A program made the translations under genes and the position numbers. From positions 1 through 29,105 of the IMG/VR virus record IMGVR_UViG_3300025120_000357: a DNA stretch of 29,105 nt. One strand, 5' to 3'. Shown piece after piece: positions 5,843-17,927 of the stretch; the first letter of the stretch is position 1, and each line of letters opens with the position of its first letter. The notes below the pieces were generated by a model that saw only the letters and a program-made list of their open reading frames with translations, did not search any database and had not been told where the DNA came from. Origin of the DNA: a virus.

Positions 5843-7720
5843 ATGCGAAACGTTCTCCTGCTCCTTGTCCTTCTCCCCCAATGGTTAGCGGCGCAGGAGT
5901 GCCACGTACTGGAGTCGCCAAGAAGGATGGGAATACAAAGGGCTCTGCCCACCCTCGAGGATGAGTGGGTTAAAACCTTGCCCTTGGTGTTCCACATCGT
6001 CCACACAGGAGGAGAGGAAAACATCACAGACGCACAGGTGCTCTCCTCCGTGCAAGCGGCCAACGAACACTTCCGAGAAGGAGACGTCGACACCCGGATA
6101 GATTGGTGCTTGGCGCAACGCGATCCGCAGGACAACCCTACCTCCGGGATAACGCGGTACAATGCGAGCGCGTGGCCCGAGTATGTAGCCGACGGGGTAG
6201 CCTCTTCGTCTACGTTTGACGGCTTCAACGACTTCACCCTCAAGAGTTCCGTGGGTTGTTGGAATCCCGACGAGTACGTCAACGTCTACATCGTGTCCGA
6301 AATCAACGGCAACGACGCCCAAGGGGGGACGCAAGGGTACGCCTACCTCGGCCCCACAGGAGATTGTAGGGACGGCGTGGTGGTGCTTTACAATGTAACG
6401 GGAACGGAGGGAGAGCTCAAGCCTTCGCGCGACCAAAGCAAGACCCTCACCCACGAGCTTGGCCACTACCTCACCCTATACCACACCTTCTCCAATACCA
6501 ACTCGTGCAACCCCTCGGGCAACTGCGAGACGTCAGGGGACTTCGTATGTGACACTCCACCCACAACCCTAAACACGGGGTGCTCTTCTTCGTGTGAGGC
6601 TATGGTCGAGAACTTCATGGACTACACCTCGCAGGACTGCAAGACCACCTTTTCCGTAGGTCAGGCGGAGCGGATGCACGGGTGCCTCTTGGGAGCGCGT
6701 GAAGACCTCCCTTTCTCTGCGGGTTGTGTTCCCTCGGTAGAGTACGACGTAACCATCGCAGACGTCACCTACGAGACGCCTTGGTGCACCACAGAGCAGG
6801 ACGTATGGGTGACCATCGTAAACCAAGGCACGGAAGCCTTCCCGTGGGTAGACGTGGACCTGTACTGCAACGGCGAACAACTCGTCCAAACAGTCCCCAA
6901 CCTCGGCCCAAGTGCCTCCGCCTCCGTCTTCTTCGAGGGCGTCTATGTGGAAGGAGCCCAGCTCCTCGAGGTGCAGGTATTTAGCCCCCTAGACGAGTAC
7001 CTCGAGAACAACTACATGGGACTCCCCTTGGAGACGTTTGAAGGAACCCTTGCCACCATCGAAGTCAAGCCCGACATCTTCGCCGCCGAGTGTTCGTGGG
7101 AGTTGCTCGACGCCTCGGGAGAGGTTGTAATTGGAGACGACGGATACCCCTTTGGGTCGGGTCAAGAGTACACCTACCAAACCTGTCTCGGGCAGGAGTG
7201 CTATACCCTTAACGCCTACGACACGGCAGGGGACGGCATGGTCTTTCCTTTTGGAGGCAACGGAAGCATCGGGGTATTTGCGGGCCTCGATACCTTGGCA
7301 TGGATCGCGGACGAGGAATACTACTTCACCTCCCGAGAGTTCTGCAACACCTTCCCCGCGTGTCCTCTCGACTACGACGGCAACGGCACAATCGGAAACG
7401 GGGACATCCTTGTCATGCTCTCCTACTACGGATGCGAGGAAGACTGCCCCTACGACCCCAACCAAGACGGGATGGTGAGCGTCCAAGACCTCTTGTTTAT
7501 GCTCTACAACGTGGGAGAATGTGAGGTGGAACTTGACTTCTCACCCGGCACGTACCTCGGGATCGTTACGGCGGAGCCTTCCTTGGCTTCTTTCTTGAGT
7601 GGCAAGCCCCGCATCTTCGACGCTATGGGGCGGCGCGTAGACGTACCCTTCGACCAACTGGCCTCCGGGGTGTATATCTTACGGCACAACGGACAAACGC
7701 GAAAGGTCTTCGTCCAATGA
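5843..7720 (+). CDS. Secreted pappalysin-like (M43) metalloprotease with T9SS sorting domain
   Basis: A 625-residue predicted zinc metalloprotease exported by the host. Residues 1-18 form a signal peptide ending LAAQ. The catalytic domain (about 45-295) carries HELGHYLTLYH, with zinc ligands H204, H208, H214 and catalytic E205. It also has the Met-turn FMDYTSQDC (M259) followed by GQAERM, the arrangement of M43 pappalysin/cytophagalysin enzymes; several Cys pairs suggest disulfides. Residues about 300-395 resemble a CARDB-like Ig-type domain (VWVTIVNQGTEAFPWVDVDL). Residues 507-559 hold two dockerin/EF-hand-like calcium loops (DYDGNGTIGNGD, DPNQDGMVSVQD). The C-terminus (IFDAMGRRVDVPFDQ; SGVYILRHNGQ) matches a type A T9SS sorting domain. 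It overlaps the next gene by ATGA. Such a host-surface enzyme is unexpected in a phage late operon. Substrate unknown. Confidence 0.85.
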   Translation: MRNVLLLLVLLPQWLAAQECHVLESPRRMGIQRALPTLEDEWVKTLPLVFHIVHTGGEENITDAQVLSSVQAANEHFREGDVDTRIDWCLAQRDPQDNPTSGITRYNASAWPEYVADGVASSSTFDGFNDFTLKSSVGCWNPDEYVNVYIVSEINGNDAQGGTQGYAYLGPTGDCRDGVVVLYNVTGTEGELKPSRDQSKTLTHELGHYLTLYHTFSNTNSCNPSGNCETSGDFVCDTPPTTLNTGCSSSCEAMVENFMDYTSQDCKTTFSVGQAERMHGCLLGAREDLPFSAGCVPSVEYDVTIADVTYETPWCTTEQDVWVTIVNQGTEAFPWVDVDLYCNGEQLVQTVPNLGPSASASVFFEGVYVEGAQLLEVQVFSPLDEYLENNYMGLPLETFEGTLATIEVKPDIFAAECSWELLDASGEVVIGDDGYPFGSGQEYTYQTCLGQECYTLNAYDTAGDGMVFPFGGNGSIGVFAGLDTLAWIADEEYYFTSREFCNTFPACPLDYDGNGTIGNGDILVMLSYYGCEEDCPYDPNQDGMVSVQDLLFMLYNVGECEVELDFSPGTYLGIVTAEPSLASFLSGKPRIFDAMGRRVDVPFDQLASGVYILRHNGQTRKVFVQ

Positions 7721-8715
7721 GGTGGTTTCTGTTCTTTATCCCGTTCCTTTCGTGGGGACAATGTGACATAGAGATTGTGGGCTTCAATCCTATCTCCACC
7801 GACATCACGCTAGCCATCAACGGGGCGGCGTGTGGCACGGAAGCGGATAGTATTGGAGAGTTCCTCTTGGCTCTCACGTTCAACCCACCCCTCGAGGACA
7901 ACCCTTTCCCGTGCTTCTACGACGACGGGTGGGCTTTGCTCATCTTCCCCCTAGACTTCCCAGGGTTTGAGATAGGACAAGGGCCGGACAACATCGTGCA
8001 ACAGGGCGACACCCTCACCTTCAGCCTCTTGGAGACGCCACTCTTTGGAAGCGGGACGGCAGATTGTTGGATTGAGATTTTGCAGAGCGGATCGTACTAC
8101 GAGGAATGCCTCATCCTGACCGTGTGGCAAATCAACGACAGCGACGGAATAACCGGAGAGCCTGGCCTCGGAGGGTTTGCGTACCCCGACACGGACATAT
8201 TCAACAGCTTCATCCAGTTCTCTTTGAACGGAGCCTGTGACCCTCCTCCCCCTCCCCTTGTCGAGGGTTGTACAGACCTCTTCGCCTTCAACTATAACGA
8301 GGGCGCAACGGAGGAGGACGGCTCTTGCATCTACCAAGGATGCCTCGACCCTGACGCCCTCAACTACTGCGAGGAGTGCACGGTGGAGGGGGAGTGTGAG
8401 TACCTACCCGAGGAGGGCGAGAACTGCAACGACCCCCTCATCTATACGTCCAACACCTTCACCCCTAACGGCGACGGCCTCAACGATTATTGGAAGCCCG
8501 TAACACGGAGCGAGTGTTGGTGGCGGTGGGAGTGCCGCATCTTAAACCGCTGGGGGACACTTGTGTGGGTAAGCTACGACCCGCAAGACAAGTGGCTCGG
8601 CAACCGCCTCGGGTACTTCGTCCCGGACGGCGTGTACGTCTACACGATAAAAGCCACAACCTTTCAATCCACCAAAGCCGTATCGATCAACGGCCAAATC
8701 TCTGTCTTCAGATGA
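7717..8715 (+). CDS. Secreted protein with gliding-motility-type (T9SS type B) C-terminal domain
   Basis: A 332-residue protein with a signal peptide (MRWFLFFIPFLSWGQ). Residues about 16-175 are a novel beta-rich, Cys-containing domain I do not recognise. A PPPPP linker leads to a GCTDLFAFNYNEGATEEDGS repeat at 183-205 and a second, shortened one (GCLDPDALNYCEECT); these Cys-rich repeats are common in secreted Bacteroidota proteins. Residues 246-332 begin NTFTPNGDGLNDYWKP and continue with ILNRWGTLVW and PDGVYVYTIKA, the hallmark of the gliding-motility-associated C-terminal domain (CHU_C type), a type B T9SS signal. It starts by ATGA overlap with the metalloprotease and ends by ATGA overlap with the lysis cassette, so it is co-translated with both. 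Surface adhesin or protease partner are possible roles. Confidence 0.85.
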   Translation: MRWFLFFIPFLSWGQCDIEIVGFNPISTDITLAINGAACGTEADSIGEFLLALTFNPPLEDNPFPCFYDDGWALLIFPLDFPGFEIGQGPDNIVQQGDTLTFSLLETPLFGSGTADCWIEILQSGSYYEECLILTVWQINDSDGITGEPGLGGFAYPDTDIFNSFIQFSLNGACDPPPPPLVEGCTDLFAFNYNEGATEEDGSCIYQGCLDPDALNYCEECTVEGECEYLPEEGENCNDPLIYTSNTFTPNGDGLNDYWKPVTRSECWWRWECRILNRWGTLVWVSYDPQDKWLGNRLGYFVPDGVYVYTIKATTFQSTKAVSINGQISVFR

Positions 8716-12700: not shown

Positions 12701-13396
12701 ATGCAGCGAGAATTTCTAGGGGTATGGATTCCCGCCCCAATATGGTTGGACAAACGCCTCACGCTTGTGGAGAAGGCCCTCCTCGCAGAGGTCGAATCTT
12801 TCACAGGCAACGGCAAGAGCTTCCACAAATGCAACGAGACCATCCAAACGGAATACGGCATCTCACGCAACACGATCGCAAGGGCATTCCGCAAGCTCGA
12901 ACAGCTCGAGTTTGTGGAGATAAACTTCAACGGAAGGGTCCGCCACGTCCGTGTCCGTGCAGGCAGCATCCCCAAAATGGGGAGGCAGAGTACCCAAAAT
13001 GGGGAGGCAGCATCCCCAAATAATACCTCTACTAATACCAGTAAAAGAACAAGAGACAATACATCTAAACACAAGGGGGTGGTGATGCCATTCGAGGACA
13101 AGGAATTTGTCGAGGCTTGGAAGAGCTGGAAGGACTACAAGAAGACCGAGCACGGCTTCAAGTTCAAAAGCCGGACAAGCGAGCAAGCCTCCCTCCATCA
13201 ATTACAAACCCTCTCGGGCGGCGATTGCGCCAACGCCGTCCGCATCATTGGGCAGAGCCTCGCCAACGGTTGGAAAGGTTTCTTTGCCCTCAAAAACCAA
13301 ACGAATGAAACAAGACGCCCTGGACCTTCAGACGGGTCACTCATTGAAGAACATCTCCGCCGCCTCGCGAATGACCCCCGAGGAGGCATGGAGTAA
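12701..13396 (+). CDS. Phage replication initiator-like protein carrying the origin repeats
   Basis: A 231-residue protein. Residues 1-75 are a winged-helix domain of the type in phage O/replisome organiser proteins (WIPAPIWLDKRLTLVEKALL; then GISRNTIARAFRKLEQLEFV as the recognition part). Residues about 85-125 are a low-complexity linker encoded by 22-bp DNA repeats (see 12962-13070), a layout like lambda O with its origin inside the gene. The C-terminal part (EDKEFVEAWKSWKDYKKTEH; GWKGFFALKN) is a DnaD-like or primosome-loading-type segment typical of phage initiators. Start ATG 12701 has a 25-nt gap from the Cro-like gene. It overlaps the next gene's ATG 13305 by 92 nt. Confidence 0.75.
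   Translation: MQREFLGVWIPAPIWLDKRLTLVEKALLAEVESFTGNGKSFHKCNETIQTEYGISRNTIARAFRKLEQLEFVEINFNGRVRHVRVRAGSIPKMGRQSTQNGEAASPNNTSTNTSKRTRDNTSKHKGVVMPFEDKEFVEAWKSWKDYKKTEHGFKFKSRTSEQASLHQLQTLSGGDCANAVRIIGQSLANGWKGFFALKNQTNETRRPGPSDGSLIEEHLRRLANDPRGGME
12962..13070. other. Candidate replication origin: 22-bp iterons plus AT-rich segment
   Basis: Three direct repeats start at 12962, 12984 and 13006, exactly 22 bp apart. The first two (ggcag....cccaaaatgggga) match at 19 of 22 bases; the third matches the first over its first 15 bases and then runs into AT-rich DNA. Each of the first two contains the palindrome-like CCCaaaatGGG. Bases 13021-13070 are only 30% G+C (15 of 50). Repeats plus an adjacent AT-rich stretch inside an initiator gene are the organisation of the lambda origin. 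Since 22 is not a multiple of 3, the repeats are read in different frames, pointing to selection on DNA, not protein. Confidence 0.65.
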
Positions 13397-13931
13397 AGGC
13401 ACAAACGTCATAGCGGCATATCGCACCGATCCCGCCCGCGTAGAGGCCACCCTCATCCTCCTACTCAAGGAAACACTCACCTACCTGGAATACAACAAGA
13501 CCATCCGCTCGGACCAAGATTTGTTGGATGCCGTCCACCATCTACGGGACAACTTTCCCGAGATGAAGCTCGAGGAGTGGGCCATAATTATGAACCGATT
13601 GAAGACGGGAGAGTACCGCCCAGGGTACGAGCGTTTGAAACTTCCGGAATTATGCGATATATTCCAACAATATGGAGGGGAGAGAGCGGCAGTACGTGAG
13701 GGCAACTGGAACGAGTTGAAGAAACACGCTCCCGATCGCTTGAGCGACGTCCAACTCGACACCCTCTACGACAACTACAAGAAGAGACGTGTTAAACAAA
13801 AGGAAGAACTCGAGAAAGCCCGCGAAATCCAGCCCGTCAAAGTCGACGAAAGGGGACGGTGGAAGCATATCCCGTACCAAAGCCCCCAAGAAGAAGAGGT
13901 TCAACAGGAGCGCGGCAGTCAAGAAACTTGA
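13305..13931 (+). CDS. Replication-associated protein, unknown function
   Basis: A 208-residue mostly helical protein. Its central part (DLLDAVHHLRDNFPEMKLEE; WAIIMNRLKTGEYRPGYERL; LCDIFQQYG) matches a pattern I know from proteins that follow initiators in Bacteroidota phages; a helicase-loader or primosomal role is possible but not shown, and no Walker motif is present. ATG 13305 is chosen because the upstream sequence is A-rich (caaaaaccaaacgaATG), despite a 92-nt overlap with the initiator gene; ATG 13371 is the fallback. The end overlaps NinG. Confidence 0.6.
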   Translation: MKQDALDLQTGHSLKNISAASRMTPEEAWSKGTNVIAAYRTDPARVEATLILLLKETLTYLEYNKTIRSDQDLLDAVHHLRDNFPEMKLEEWAIIMNRLKTGEYRPGYERLKLPELCDIFQQYGGERAAVREGNWNELKKHAPDRLSDVQLDTLYDNYKKRRVKQKEELEKAREIQPVKVDERGRWKHIPYQSPQEEEVQQERGSQET

Positions 13932-15113: not shown

Positions 15114-15234
15114 ACCACAAGAAGAGATGCAGGACTACCTCGACCGCTGTATGGCGGACGATGTTATGAGCTCCGAGTACCCCAACAGAATGCAACGCCT
15201 CGCAATATGCGCCAAAGAATGGACCAAGAAATAA
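15094..15234 (+). CDS. Small conserved phage protein
   Basis: A 46-residue protein: MPIPKPEPQEEMQDYLDRCM, then ADDVMSSEYP and QRLAICAKEW. The P-E-x-x-x-x-x-F/Y-x-x-R-C-M ... Q-R-x-A-x-C motif is widespread in phages as a small protein or as a domain of larger structural proteins; its function is unknown. It overlaps the previous gene by 20 nt and the next gene by 16 nt. Confidence 0.65.
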   Translation: MPIPKPEPQEEMQDYLDRCMADDVMSSEYPNRMQRLAICAKEWTKK

Positions 15235-15563
15235 ACACCAACGTGTGGATGATGGTGGGAGCCATAGAGCGACCAAGAGACCACGGAAAGAAAGCCGAGA
15301 AGCGCAAGGTCGAACGCGCCATAGATATGTGGGGCTACACCTGGGACGAAATCATGGACGACAACCGACAGGCGTACAGGGTAGAGGCTCGGATGATAAT
15401 CGCGAAGTATCTTCGGGACAAGAAGTGGACCCTTAAAGCCATAGGCACATACATGGGGGGACGCGATCACGCCACGGCCCGATACAACGTCATCAAGTGC
15501 GAGGACTTCATCCATACGGAGAAGGACTTCCGCGCGAAATATTATCAATTCCTAAACGCATGA
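15219..15563 (+). CDS. Protein with DnaA domain IV-like helix-turn-helix
   Basis: A 114-residue protein. Its C-terminal part (VEARMIIAKYLRDKKWTLKA; IGTYMGGRDHATARYNVIKC) closely follows the DnaA-box-binding signature of DnaA domain IV (GGRDHxT with preceding helices). It has no ATPase domain. It may bind DnaA-box-like sites to start phage replication or block host initiation; neither is shown here. ATG 15219 is chosen; ATG 15207 in frame also exists. Its end overlaps the next ATG (ATGA). Confidence 0.7.
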   Translation: MDQEINTNVWMMVGAIERPRDHGKKAEKRKVERAIDMWGYTWDEIMDDNRQAYRVEARMIIAKYLRDKKWTLKAIGTYMGGRDHATARYNVIKCEDFIHTEKDFRAKYYQFLNA

Positions 15564-15796
15564 CCCTCCGCAAAGTTAAACGCCTACTCAACGAGTGCGA
15601 CGACTTCCTCGTCTTTACAATGACGAAGAGCAATGAAGAAACCGCCAACTTCGGCGTCTACCATAAAGACCCCGAGAGCTGGGAGATACTCCTTAACCTT
15701 GCCGTCAACGATTACCAGGTCAGAGAAACCCTACGAAACGTCCTCAATGCAGCCGATACATATAGAGCCGAGCAAGCTTCGGACGAGTCCGAGTAA
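15560..15796 (+). CDS. Small phage protein, unknown
   Basis: A 78-residue acidic protein: MTLRKVKRLLNECDDFLVFT at the N-terminus, then NFGVYHKDPESWEILLNLAV, and a helical acidic end. No family recognised. ATG 15560 overlaps the previous stop (ATGA); its 3' end overlaps the ParB-methyltransferase gene by 50 nt. The longer in-frame extension upstream to 15497 lies entirely within the previous gene and is rejected. Confidence 0.6.
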   Translation: MTLRKVKRLLNECDDFLVFTMTKSNEETANFGVYHKDPESWEILLNLAVNDYQVRETLRNVLNAADTYRAEQASDESE

Positions 15797-16796
15797 CCCC
15801 CGAGCCATCCGGGACAACGCGATGGAGAAACTCATGCTCTCGATTGCAGAAGACCCGGAGCTCATGGAGGCCCGTCCTTTGATTGTAAACGACAGGATGG
15901 AGGTGTTGGCAGGCAACCAACGTTTGAGGGCCTGTATAGCCCTTGAATGGCCCACCGTGCCTTGTGTGGTTGTTGACTGGGACGAGGCGAAGCAACGCCG
16001 CGCCATGATTAAGGACAACGTCTCCGCAGGCGAGTGGGATCAAGATATGCTTGCCAACGAGTGGGAGGTAGAAGAACTCAAAGAGATGGGGCTCAATCTT
16101 GATTGGGACGAACCCGAGGAGAGGGAGGGACTTACCGACCCCGACGACGTGCCGGAAGTACCGGAGGAGCCCACCACCAAACTCGGAGACGTATGGCTCT
16201 TGGGTGAGCACCGTGTCATGTGTGGCGACTCGACCAAAGCCGAGGACGTGGAACGACTTATGGACGGCGCTACGGCTGAAGCGCTTGTAACAGACCCTCC
16301 CTATGGTATCGGCATAAGCTCAAACCCCGTACGGCAGAAACACGAGAAAAAAAACTGGGATGCGTCGGCAGTAGAGCCCAAGCAATTTTTGGACATGGTA
16401 GAACAAGCAATTATTTGGGGAGGCAATTACTTTGACCTCCCTCCCGCAAAAGGCTTTTTTGTATGGGATAAAAAACAGCCCGAGAACTTTACGCTTGCCA
16501 TGTGCGAACAGGCTTGGACCAACATTGACACCCCCGCCAAAATCTACCGTTTAAGCGTGACATCCTACGCAAAAGAACACCCCACGCAAAAACCCGTCGA
16601 CCTCATGGAGTGGTGCATAGAGAAAACACAAGGCACAATCTTTGACCCATTTTTGGGTTCAGGGTCAACACTCATTGCCGCAGAGAAGACGGGGCGCAAA
16701 TGCTACGGGATGGAACTAGACCCTAAATACTGCGACGTAATTGTAAAGCGATGGGAAGCATTCACAGGTAAAAAAGCCACACTATGGAAGCAATGA
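15747..16796 (+). CDS. ParB-like nuclease/DNA methyltransferase fusion
   Basis: A 349-residue two-domain protein. Residues 1-100 are a ParB/Spo0J-like N-terminal domain (SPSNPRAIRDN; RPLIVNDRMEVLAGNQRLRA). Residues about 155-349 are an N6-adenine or N4-cytosine methyltransferase with the catalytic DPPYG at 183-187 and the AdoMet-binding FDPFLGSGSTLIAAE from 299, in the beta-class order. Such fusions are common in phages and usually protect DNA from host restriction. ATG 15747 is chosen; more upstream in-frame sequence is a shadow of the previous gene. Bases 16381-16500 are 40-45% G+C, lower than most of the window. No restriction partner gene is present. Confidence 0.85.
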   Translation: MQPIHIEPSKLRTSPSNPRAIRDNAMEKLMLSIAEDPELMEARPLIVNDRMEVLAGNQRLRACIALEWPTVPCVVVDWDEAKQRRAMIKDNVSAGEWDQDMLANEWEVEELKEMGLNLDWDEPEEREGLTDPDDVPEVPEEPTTKLGDVWLLGEHRVMCGDSTKAEDVERLMDGATAEALVTDPPYGIGISSNPVRQKHEKKNWDASAVEPKQFLDMVEQAIIWGGNYFDLPPAKGFFVWDKKQPENFTLAMCEQAWTNIDTPAKIYRLSVTSYAKEHPTQKPVDLMEWCIEKTQGTIFDPFLGSGSTLIAAEKTGRKCYGMELDPKYCDVIVKRWEAFTGKKATLWKQ

Positions 16797-17146: not shown

Positions 17147-17331
17147 CCAAGAGGGAAAACAAGATACTCGTGGCCCGCTTGCTTAACGAGCGCGGATTGC
17201 CGTTTGAGTTTATGCCCTCGGGTCAATTCAAGGTCCAAGGCATCTTCTATAATTACAGGGCCAAGAGCTACGCCAAGGGTGGGGAGTGGTATCGCTTTAA
17301 TTCTCACAAGGACTTTGTGAATAGTTTATGA
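17143..17331 (+). CDS. Small protein between terminase subunits, unknown
   Basis: A 62-residue basic protein: MTKRENKILVARLLNERGLP, then GQFKVQGIFYNYRAKSYAKG and FNSHKDFVNSL. It could be a small fold with beta-strands and helices; not recognised. ATG 17143 and its stop lie in ATGA overlaps on both sides, so it is translated together with the small terminase and the methyltransferase. Confidence 0.6.
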   Translation: MTKRENKILVARLLNERGLPFEFMPSGQFKVQGIFYNYRAKSYAKGGEWYRFNSHKDFVNSL

Positions 17332-17927
17332 TTGACCTCCGCCACATTGACTGCATGGAGTACCTCGCCACCTGCGAGGACAACGCGTTTGAGCTTGCCA
17401 TTGTAGATCCGCCATATACAAACAACATCCAAGGTCTTAAAGCGGGAAACAATCGGTCACACTTTAATTACGAAGCCTTGTCGCAACCACCAACATCATC
17501 ATATATAAACGAGCTTTTTAGGATTAGTCACAACCAAATAGTTTTCGGATTTAACTATTTTCTAAACCTTATGCCTGCGACCAATTCTGTTTTGTGTTGG
17601 TGGAAACATCAGAACGGGCATTTTTCGGAATGCGAATACGCATGGAGTTCATTTGGCAAAAGCAGGTTATTTGACAGACCTTATCAAAAAGACATTGGCA
17701 ACAAAATCCACCCAACGCAAAAGCCTGTCGAGCTGTACGAGTGGCTTCTCATGAACTACGCCAAGGAGGGCGACCGCATCCTTGACACGCACCTCGGCAG
17801 TGGCTCCATTGCCATCGCTTGCCACAATCTCGGGTTTGACCTCGTGGGGTGTGAGCTGGACAAGGACTACTTCGACGCCGCAAGCAATCGCCTAGAGAAG
17901 CACAAGCAACAACTCCGGATGTTTTGA
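17328..17927 (+). CDS. DNA methyltransferase (N6-adenine or N4-cytosine type)
   Basis: A 199-residue stand-alone methyltransferase. The catalytic motif DPPY is at residues 27-30 and the AdoMet site DTHLGSGSIAIACHNLGF begins at 153, with HPTQKPVELYEWLL ahead of it, the order of beta-class enzymes. The middle part (about residues 45-125), expected to read the DNA target, is encoded by clearly AT-rich DNA (91 of 240 bases G or C over 17461-17700), while the flanks reach 63%. It is short for the class but has all visible core motifs. It is coupled by ATGA at both ends and lies between the terminase genes. No nuclease partner is present, so it likely protects the phage genome. Confidence 0.85.
   Translation: MIDLRHIDCMEYLATCEDNAFELAIVDPPYTNNIQGLKAGNNRSHFNYEALSQPPTSSYINELFRISHNQIVFGFNYFLNLMPATNSVLCWWKHQNGHFSECEYAWSSFGKSRLFDRPYQKDIGNKIHPTQKPVELYEWLLMNYAKEGDRILDTHLGSGSIAIACHNLGFDLVGCELDKDYFDAASNRLEKHKQQLRMF

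Follow-up and report, generated by a model that had tools for sequence, protein, structure and literature searches.

The 29,105-nucleotide stretch of phage DNA that we analysed (hereafter the window) very probably carries an origin of replication that lies within the gene for its own initiator, of the lambda O or RepA_N plasmid kind, in which the winged helix-turn-helix (wHTH) domain of the protein would bind the iterons of its own gene, an A+T-rich stretch would open and a helicase would be recruited. Comparison with relatives also makes it likely that phage initiators with such a wHTH share one recognition code, in which the third residue of the recognition-helix tip sets the two bases flanking a near-constant CAAAATG heptamer in Bacteroidota, Firmicutes and Proteobacteria phages, so that origins and their cross-compatibility would be readable from sequence. 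Phage origins are mostly unmapped; if the rule is true, origin and initiator specificity become predictable from one gene in many uncultured phages, and direct tests become possible both of origin incompatibility between phages and of how new specificity evolves within a coding sequence.

Self-comparison of the window resolved two full palindromic iterons in direct tandem on the + strand, iteron 1 (AGGCAGCATCCCCAAAATGGGG, 12961..12982) and iteron 2 (AGGCAGAGTACCCAAAATGGGG, 12983..13004), which are identical at 19/22 positions and near-invariant across relatives, and a third copy (AGGCAGCATCCCCAAATAATAC, 13005-13026) that is identical to iteron 1 at 16/22. Since its right palindrome arm is missing, we consider the third copy as a half iteron (AGGCAGCATCCCCAAAT, 13005..13021, + strand, recognised by self-comparison and in relatives), and the array therefore comprises about 2.5 iterons, a low number that counts against the origin reading. 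The CAAAATG heptamers occupy positions 12973-12979 and 12995-13001, and the arms of iteron 1 are TCCC and GGGA, the last base of GGGA belonging to the next repeat. The original prediction described three repeats exactly 22 bp apart, two of them 19/22 identical; start-to-start distances are indeed 22 and 22, and the place is correct, although the array starts at 12961, one base before the 12962 proposed. The period-22 self-match (33/40) is the sole match of at least 31/40 for periods 12-40 in the whole 29 kb, the best self-match among 100 dinucleotide shuffles being 26/40, and the iteron pattern with up to 3 mismatches occurs at these two places only (0 expected). The peptides differ from repeat to repeat, as had been claimed (SIPKMG, STQNG and ASPNN). 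The repeats are real, and the earlier observation of them is confirmed.

The gene that carries the repeats (12701..13396, + strand) encodes a protein of 231 amino acids with, in order, an N-terminal wHTH, a disordered linker and a C-terminal helical domain, an arrangement drawn from Pfam, PHROG and an AlphaFold2 model. Its proposed identity as a replication-initiator homologue is borne out by PF13730 (HTH_36), to which it scores 32.2 bits in a Pfam scan against a gathering cutoff of 25, and by PHROG 678 (phrog_678, 'replication initiation O-like'), matched with an E of 3e-13 over residues 6-209, near the whole length. The Pfam scan (E up to 1) gave no match of the window protein to PF06970 (RepA_N), and there was none to PF04492 (Phage_rep_O), to which lambda O itself scores 123 bits; aligned directly with lambda O, the window protein reaches an hhalign probability of 0.1%, and a PDB fold search returned weak wHTH matches alone, none with E <0.001. 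The AlphaFold2 model is moderate (mean pLDDT 65, pTM 0.36) and consists of a wHTH with its recognition helix at residues 56-68, a stretch at residues 91-124 modelled with low confidence, whose codons fall in the iteron and A+T-rich DNA, and a bundle of C-terminal helices. The recognition-helix tip, S55-R56-N57-T58 (codons at 12863..12874, + strand), was located from the model helix and from the association and hold-out tests described below, and contains N57, a residue of the class for which the rule expects CC beside the heptamer. The helical domain at the C-terminus (roughly residues 126-195, codons at 13076..13285, + strand), delimited from relatives and the model, is swapped for an unrelated domain in relatives with the same wHTH and iterons.

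The repeat DNA is itself constrained, since synonymous sites are frozen in the iteron block but vary elsewhere. We found 33 relatives in IMG/VR; in the nearest of these about 80 bp of the repeat and adjoining DNA is almost unchanged, and over ten non-identical sequences synonymous codon identity is 0.992 within 12956-13036 versus 0.657 outside. The block is likewise near-invariant in L010, L012 and L013 despite their different C-terminal domain. The same synonymous test applied to four other iteron classes gave p values of 1.7e-5, 8e-7, 0.03 and 0.10, which are not strict probabilities as the sequences are kin. The claim that the repetition is kept for a function at the level of DNA thus holds in the window gene and extends to other iteron classes.

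Using the N-domain alone as query, we collected 80 loci, and linker iterons of 22-23 bp persist in relatives down to 31-44% N-domain identity. In the near clades, tandem repeats are found in every readable linker, with a period of 22 bp, or 23 bp among L113-L126, and the palindrome arms vary between groups and agree inside one gene. Distant relatives have iterons at the same place with different arms, often in the form arm-CAAAATG-arm', and the repeats are less regular in the most distant members. Conservation of the repeats in related phages had been put forward as a check, and as every readable near-clade linker has iterons, the opposing case of a gene present with its repeats absent was not encountered there. 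The repeat unit is under a hard dual constraint: because a 22-nt unit rotates the reading frame, only sets of three copies can be added or removed unless other indels compensate, and the one clear copy-number change, a single event in L069 relative to its class, is of exactly +66 nt, or three repeats, with the frame kept. Scanning bacterial genomes with the N-domain profile revealed no relative. A DNA-pattern search for two CCCAAAATGGG motifs also matched initiator genes of unrelated phages, most of which have N at the third tip position (the script for these proteins required a helix-like pattern and did not require N). The spacing of CCCAAAATGGG pairs in viral contigs is mixed, 22 being the commonest (19), followed by 21 (12), 23 (10) and 24 (9); many of the pairs have nothing to do with initiators and are repeats or sites resembling operators. 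In five bacterial genome loci (L220, L251, L275, L281 and L288), CCCAAAATGGG pairs with a spacing of 21 bp lie at the starts of open frames with a LFGKTRRAVLALLYG-like motif, or close to them, and look like operators of another family, and cyanobacterial contigs (L218, L239, L249, L287 and others) carry CCCAAAATGGGAGAGGG-like pairs with a spacing of 36-40 bp, which are probably an unrelated dispersed repeat.

Among classified genes with a readable tip, the iteron class agrees with the recognition-helix tip in 20/20, 16/16, 7/7 and 3/3 genes by class, counts that are not independent, the sequences being kin, and that include one class without the heptamer (CCGWAA-TTWCGG), outside the base rule given below. 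C-terminal types A and B are both found with three iteron classes, so the arms follow the helix tip and not the C-terminal domain. A Firmicutes phage initiator family, gathered solely by the 53 amino acids before the recognition helix (80 kept of roughly 560 relatives, as in the hold-out scan), has arm-CAAAATG-arm' iterons with many different arms and a recognisable site in 62/76 members. When the two families are pooled (66 non-redundant cases), no column covaries more strongly with either heptamer-flanking base than the third tip residue (p 5e-5 by permutation, each distinct tip being counted once). The rule read from these sequences, whose scope is tips ending in T or S and CAAAATG-type iterons, predicts CC when the third tip residue is N, G at -2 when it is R, T at -1 when it is S, A, P, V or M, and G at -1 when it is D, K being ambiguous. 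Identity-matched pairs show that the signal is carried by the tip and not by overall relatedness: below 40% identity outside the tip, the -1 base is shared in 85% of pairs with the same third residue and in 20% of other pairs, and at 80% identity or more these values are 100% and 34%. Sebago and phiIPLA88, for example, share 92% of residues beyond the tip and have arms of GTAT and GGGA.

The rule, derived from the training data, was recorded in writing before the new scan. This hold-out comprised 40 new proteins, homologues of the training set in which the tips SENT, SGST, SSAT, SLRT, NERT and SADT were new; the 27 covered by the rule all agree (27/27, and 12/12 distinct tip-arm combinations), a result equalled by 13 of 200,000 permutations, and the remainder are 8 proteins without a recognisable site and 5 with K, I or an unread tip. 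In a further set of 20 cultured phages from several phyla, those covered and having the standard heptamer agree in 8/8 cases (4 by script, 4 with tips read by eye), as do, by eye, the Geobacillus, Pseudomonas AF and USP_18 phages, which have a variant heptamer. K or I is present at the third tip position in 4 of the 20, and 5 of the 20, whose tip ends in a residue other than T or S, lie outside the rule, among them Bacteroides phage B124-14, which would contradict it. The residue-to-base rule was not found in the literature searched, which takes in few subscription journals, and it appears to be new.

The repeats are followed, as predicted, by a 50-bp stretch of 30% G+C (13017..13066, + strand), a candidate unwinding region. 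In it, ACCTCTACTAATACa (13027-13041) is nearly invariant at codon level across relatives, and the codons ACC-TCT-ACT-AAT-ACA just 3' of the iterons are almost fixed (14/14 for ACT and ACA). The T spacing in ACCTCTACTAATACa recalls TnnT, a DnaD-type single-stranded DNA motif bound by B. subtilis DnaD (PMC10201434), a resemblance that is suggestive only. Firmicutes homologues (L313-L438) have a second phased element, AGAGACTAC-like, at about 14, 25, 37 and 49 bp past the last heptamer, with 1.37 occurrences per 100 bp there versus 0.02 elsewhere in the genes; the TE motif that it encodes has the codons ACA and GAG in 89/91 uses, and the element, whose counterpart in the window is weak, may serve in strand opening or single-strand binding. 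A conserved downstream gene (13305..13931, + strand, start uncertain between 13305 and 13371), identified by synteny, overlaps the 3' end of the initiator and adjoins it in 43 relatives across iteron classes. It gave no match to a family of known function; in several cultured homologues this position is taken by a helicase or loader gene, a synteny that makes the gene product a candidate helicase-recruitment partner.

In the mechanism that we propose, the N-terminal wHTH would bind the 22-bp palindromes midway along the gene, with iterons recurring every two helical turns and each probably holding one dimer; dimer binding is suggested by the palindromes and by the lambda precedent (PMC5043065). 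The nucleoprotein complex would open the adjacent A+T-rich stretch, and the C-terminal domain, joined by a flexible linker that the origin DNA itself would encode, would recruit the host's replicative helicase jointly with the protein from the overlapping downstream gene, both the opening and the recruitment being proposed after lambda O-P (PMC6022878), pSK41 Rep (PMC5703833) and synteny. An initiator with N-terminal DNA-binding domain, tandem constrained repeats within the coding sequence and an adjacent A+T-rich stretch, three of the marks of an origin inside an initiator gene, are found here. The earlier interpretation is therefore supported in those parts that sequence can address; the cumulative GC skew, another of the checks proposed, has no switch at the locus, in a window that lacks end repeats and is possibly a fragment.

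Binding of these iterons by the initiator's own wHTH is supported by our data, the covariation being strong, and the same data would suit repeats that act as an operator, controlling transcription or the synthesis of the protein itself while replication begins elsewhere, for binding by itself does not prove origin function and the CCCAAAATGGG pairs 21 bp apart near other bacterial genes look operator-like. We nevertheless regard an operator as improbable, given that the site is mid coding sequence and not at a promoter, that an A+T-rich stretch follows the repeats as in lambda, that the homologues are replication initiators adjoining helicase or loader genes, and that the precedents of pSK41 and lambda both concern origins (PMC5703833, PMC7466680). 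As RNA, the palindromes can also fold into hairpins, which reach z values of -2.4 to -3.6 in four relatives, so that the conserved element might work in the mRNA by affecting translation or stability; this is very improbable, as the window itself reaches just z -1.5 and as hairpins leave unexplained why direct repeats keep a constant spacing of 22-23 bp, why the non-palindromic GGCAG between the cores is conserved and why the arms match the recognition-helix tip. Finally, the encoded segment is predicted to be disordered and resembles a flexible linker, as it would if the repeats were kept for their peptide or were a chance low-complexity linker without DNA function. We give this almost no credence: different frames yield different peptides from successive repeats, the near-frozen synonymous sites already refute it, repeats with altered arms persist in distant relatives, and chance is excluded by the shuffles.

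Other genes of the window include one for a 118-aa protein like the DnaA DNA-binding domain alone (15207-15563; PF08299, E 8.7e-7, 29.3 bits, slightly under the cutoff of 31.5), which shares the early region of the initiator, one in which a ParB N-terminal domain is fused to an N6/N4 DNA methylase domain in a single protein (15633-16796), and one for a second methylase (17328-17927). Among the virion and lysis genes lie two secreted-type genes (5843-8715), unusual cargo in a phage, for a 625-aa M43 metallopeptidase-domain protein and a 332-aa protein with a type IX secretion signal domain (CHU_C). Because of the type IX secretion signal domain, the host of this uncultured phage is probably a member of the Bacteroidota.

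Lambdoid phages, SPP1 and RepA_N plasmids are already known to have origins within initiator genes: lambda O is the experimental precedent, with the origin inside gene O (PMC7466680), and phage 80alpha ORF20 and SPP1 G38P are described with the origin in the gene (PMC5499656). The predicted likeness to lambda holds for layout, for how the iterons are built and for the several frames in which they are read, but not for direct protein similarity, in view of the hhalign and PF04492 results above. As in lambda, the proposed origin lies mid initiator gene with an A+T-rich stretch on the same side, the iterons are palindromic (lambda's annotated arm-CAAAACG-arm', ATCCCTCAAAACGAGGGA, is also read in several frames), and the protein has an N-domain, a linker and a C-domain, with a partner gene overlapping the 3' end; by contrast, lambda iterons are spaced 20, 24 and 23 bp whereas those of the window are strictly at 22, and lambda O belongs to PF04492, its link to the window protein being solely the shared phrog_678 profile. 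In pSK41, Rep boxes lie inside rep (PMC5703833), and as in the arrangement proposed here, the wHTH N-domain of pSK41 Rep binds central repeats of its own gene and the linker is encoded by the origin; in pPR9, a PF13730 N-domain and its origin have moved together onto another C-domain, and the plasmid replicates (PMC5703833). Unlike the window, pSK41 and pPR9 are staphylococcal plasmids, and pSK41 has a RepA_N domain, not PF13730. The DnaD-like phage initiators (Staphylococcus phages Sebago and phiIPLA88, Bacillus phage vB_BhaS-171 and others from Firmicutes and Proteobacteria phages) differ from the window in arms, C-terminal domains and hosts, with N-domains less than 40% identical where BLAST detects similarity, but have the same wHTH-linker-C-domain build, a helicase or loader gene adjoining in several of them and, as in the window, arm-CAAAATG-arm' linker iterons at 22-23 bp.
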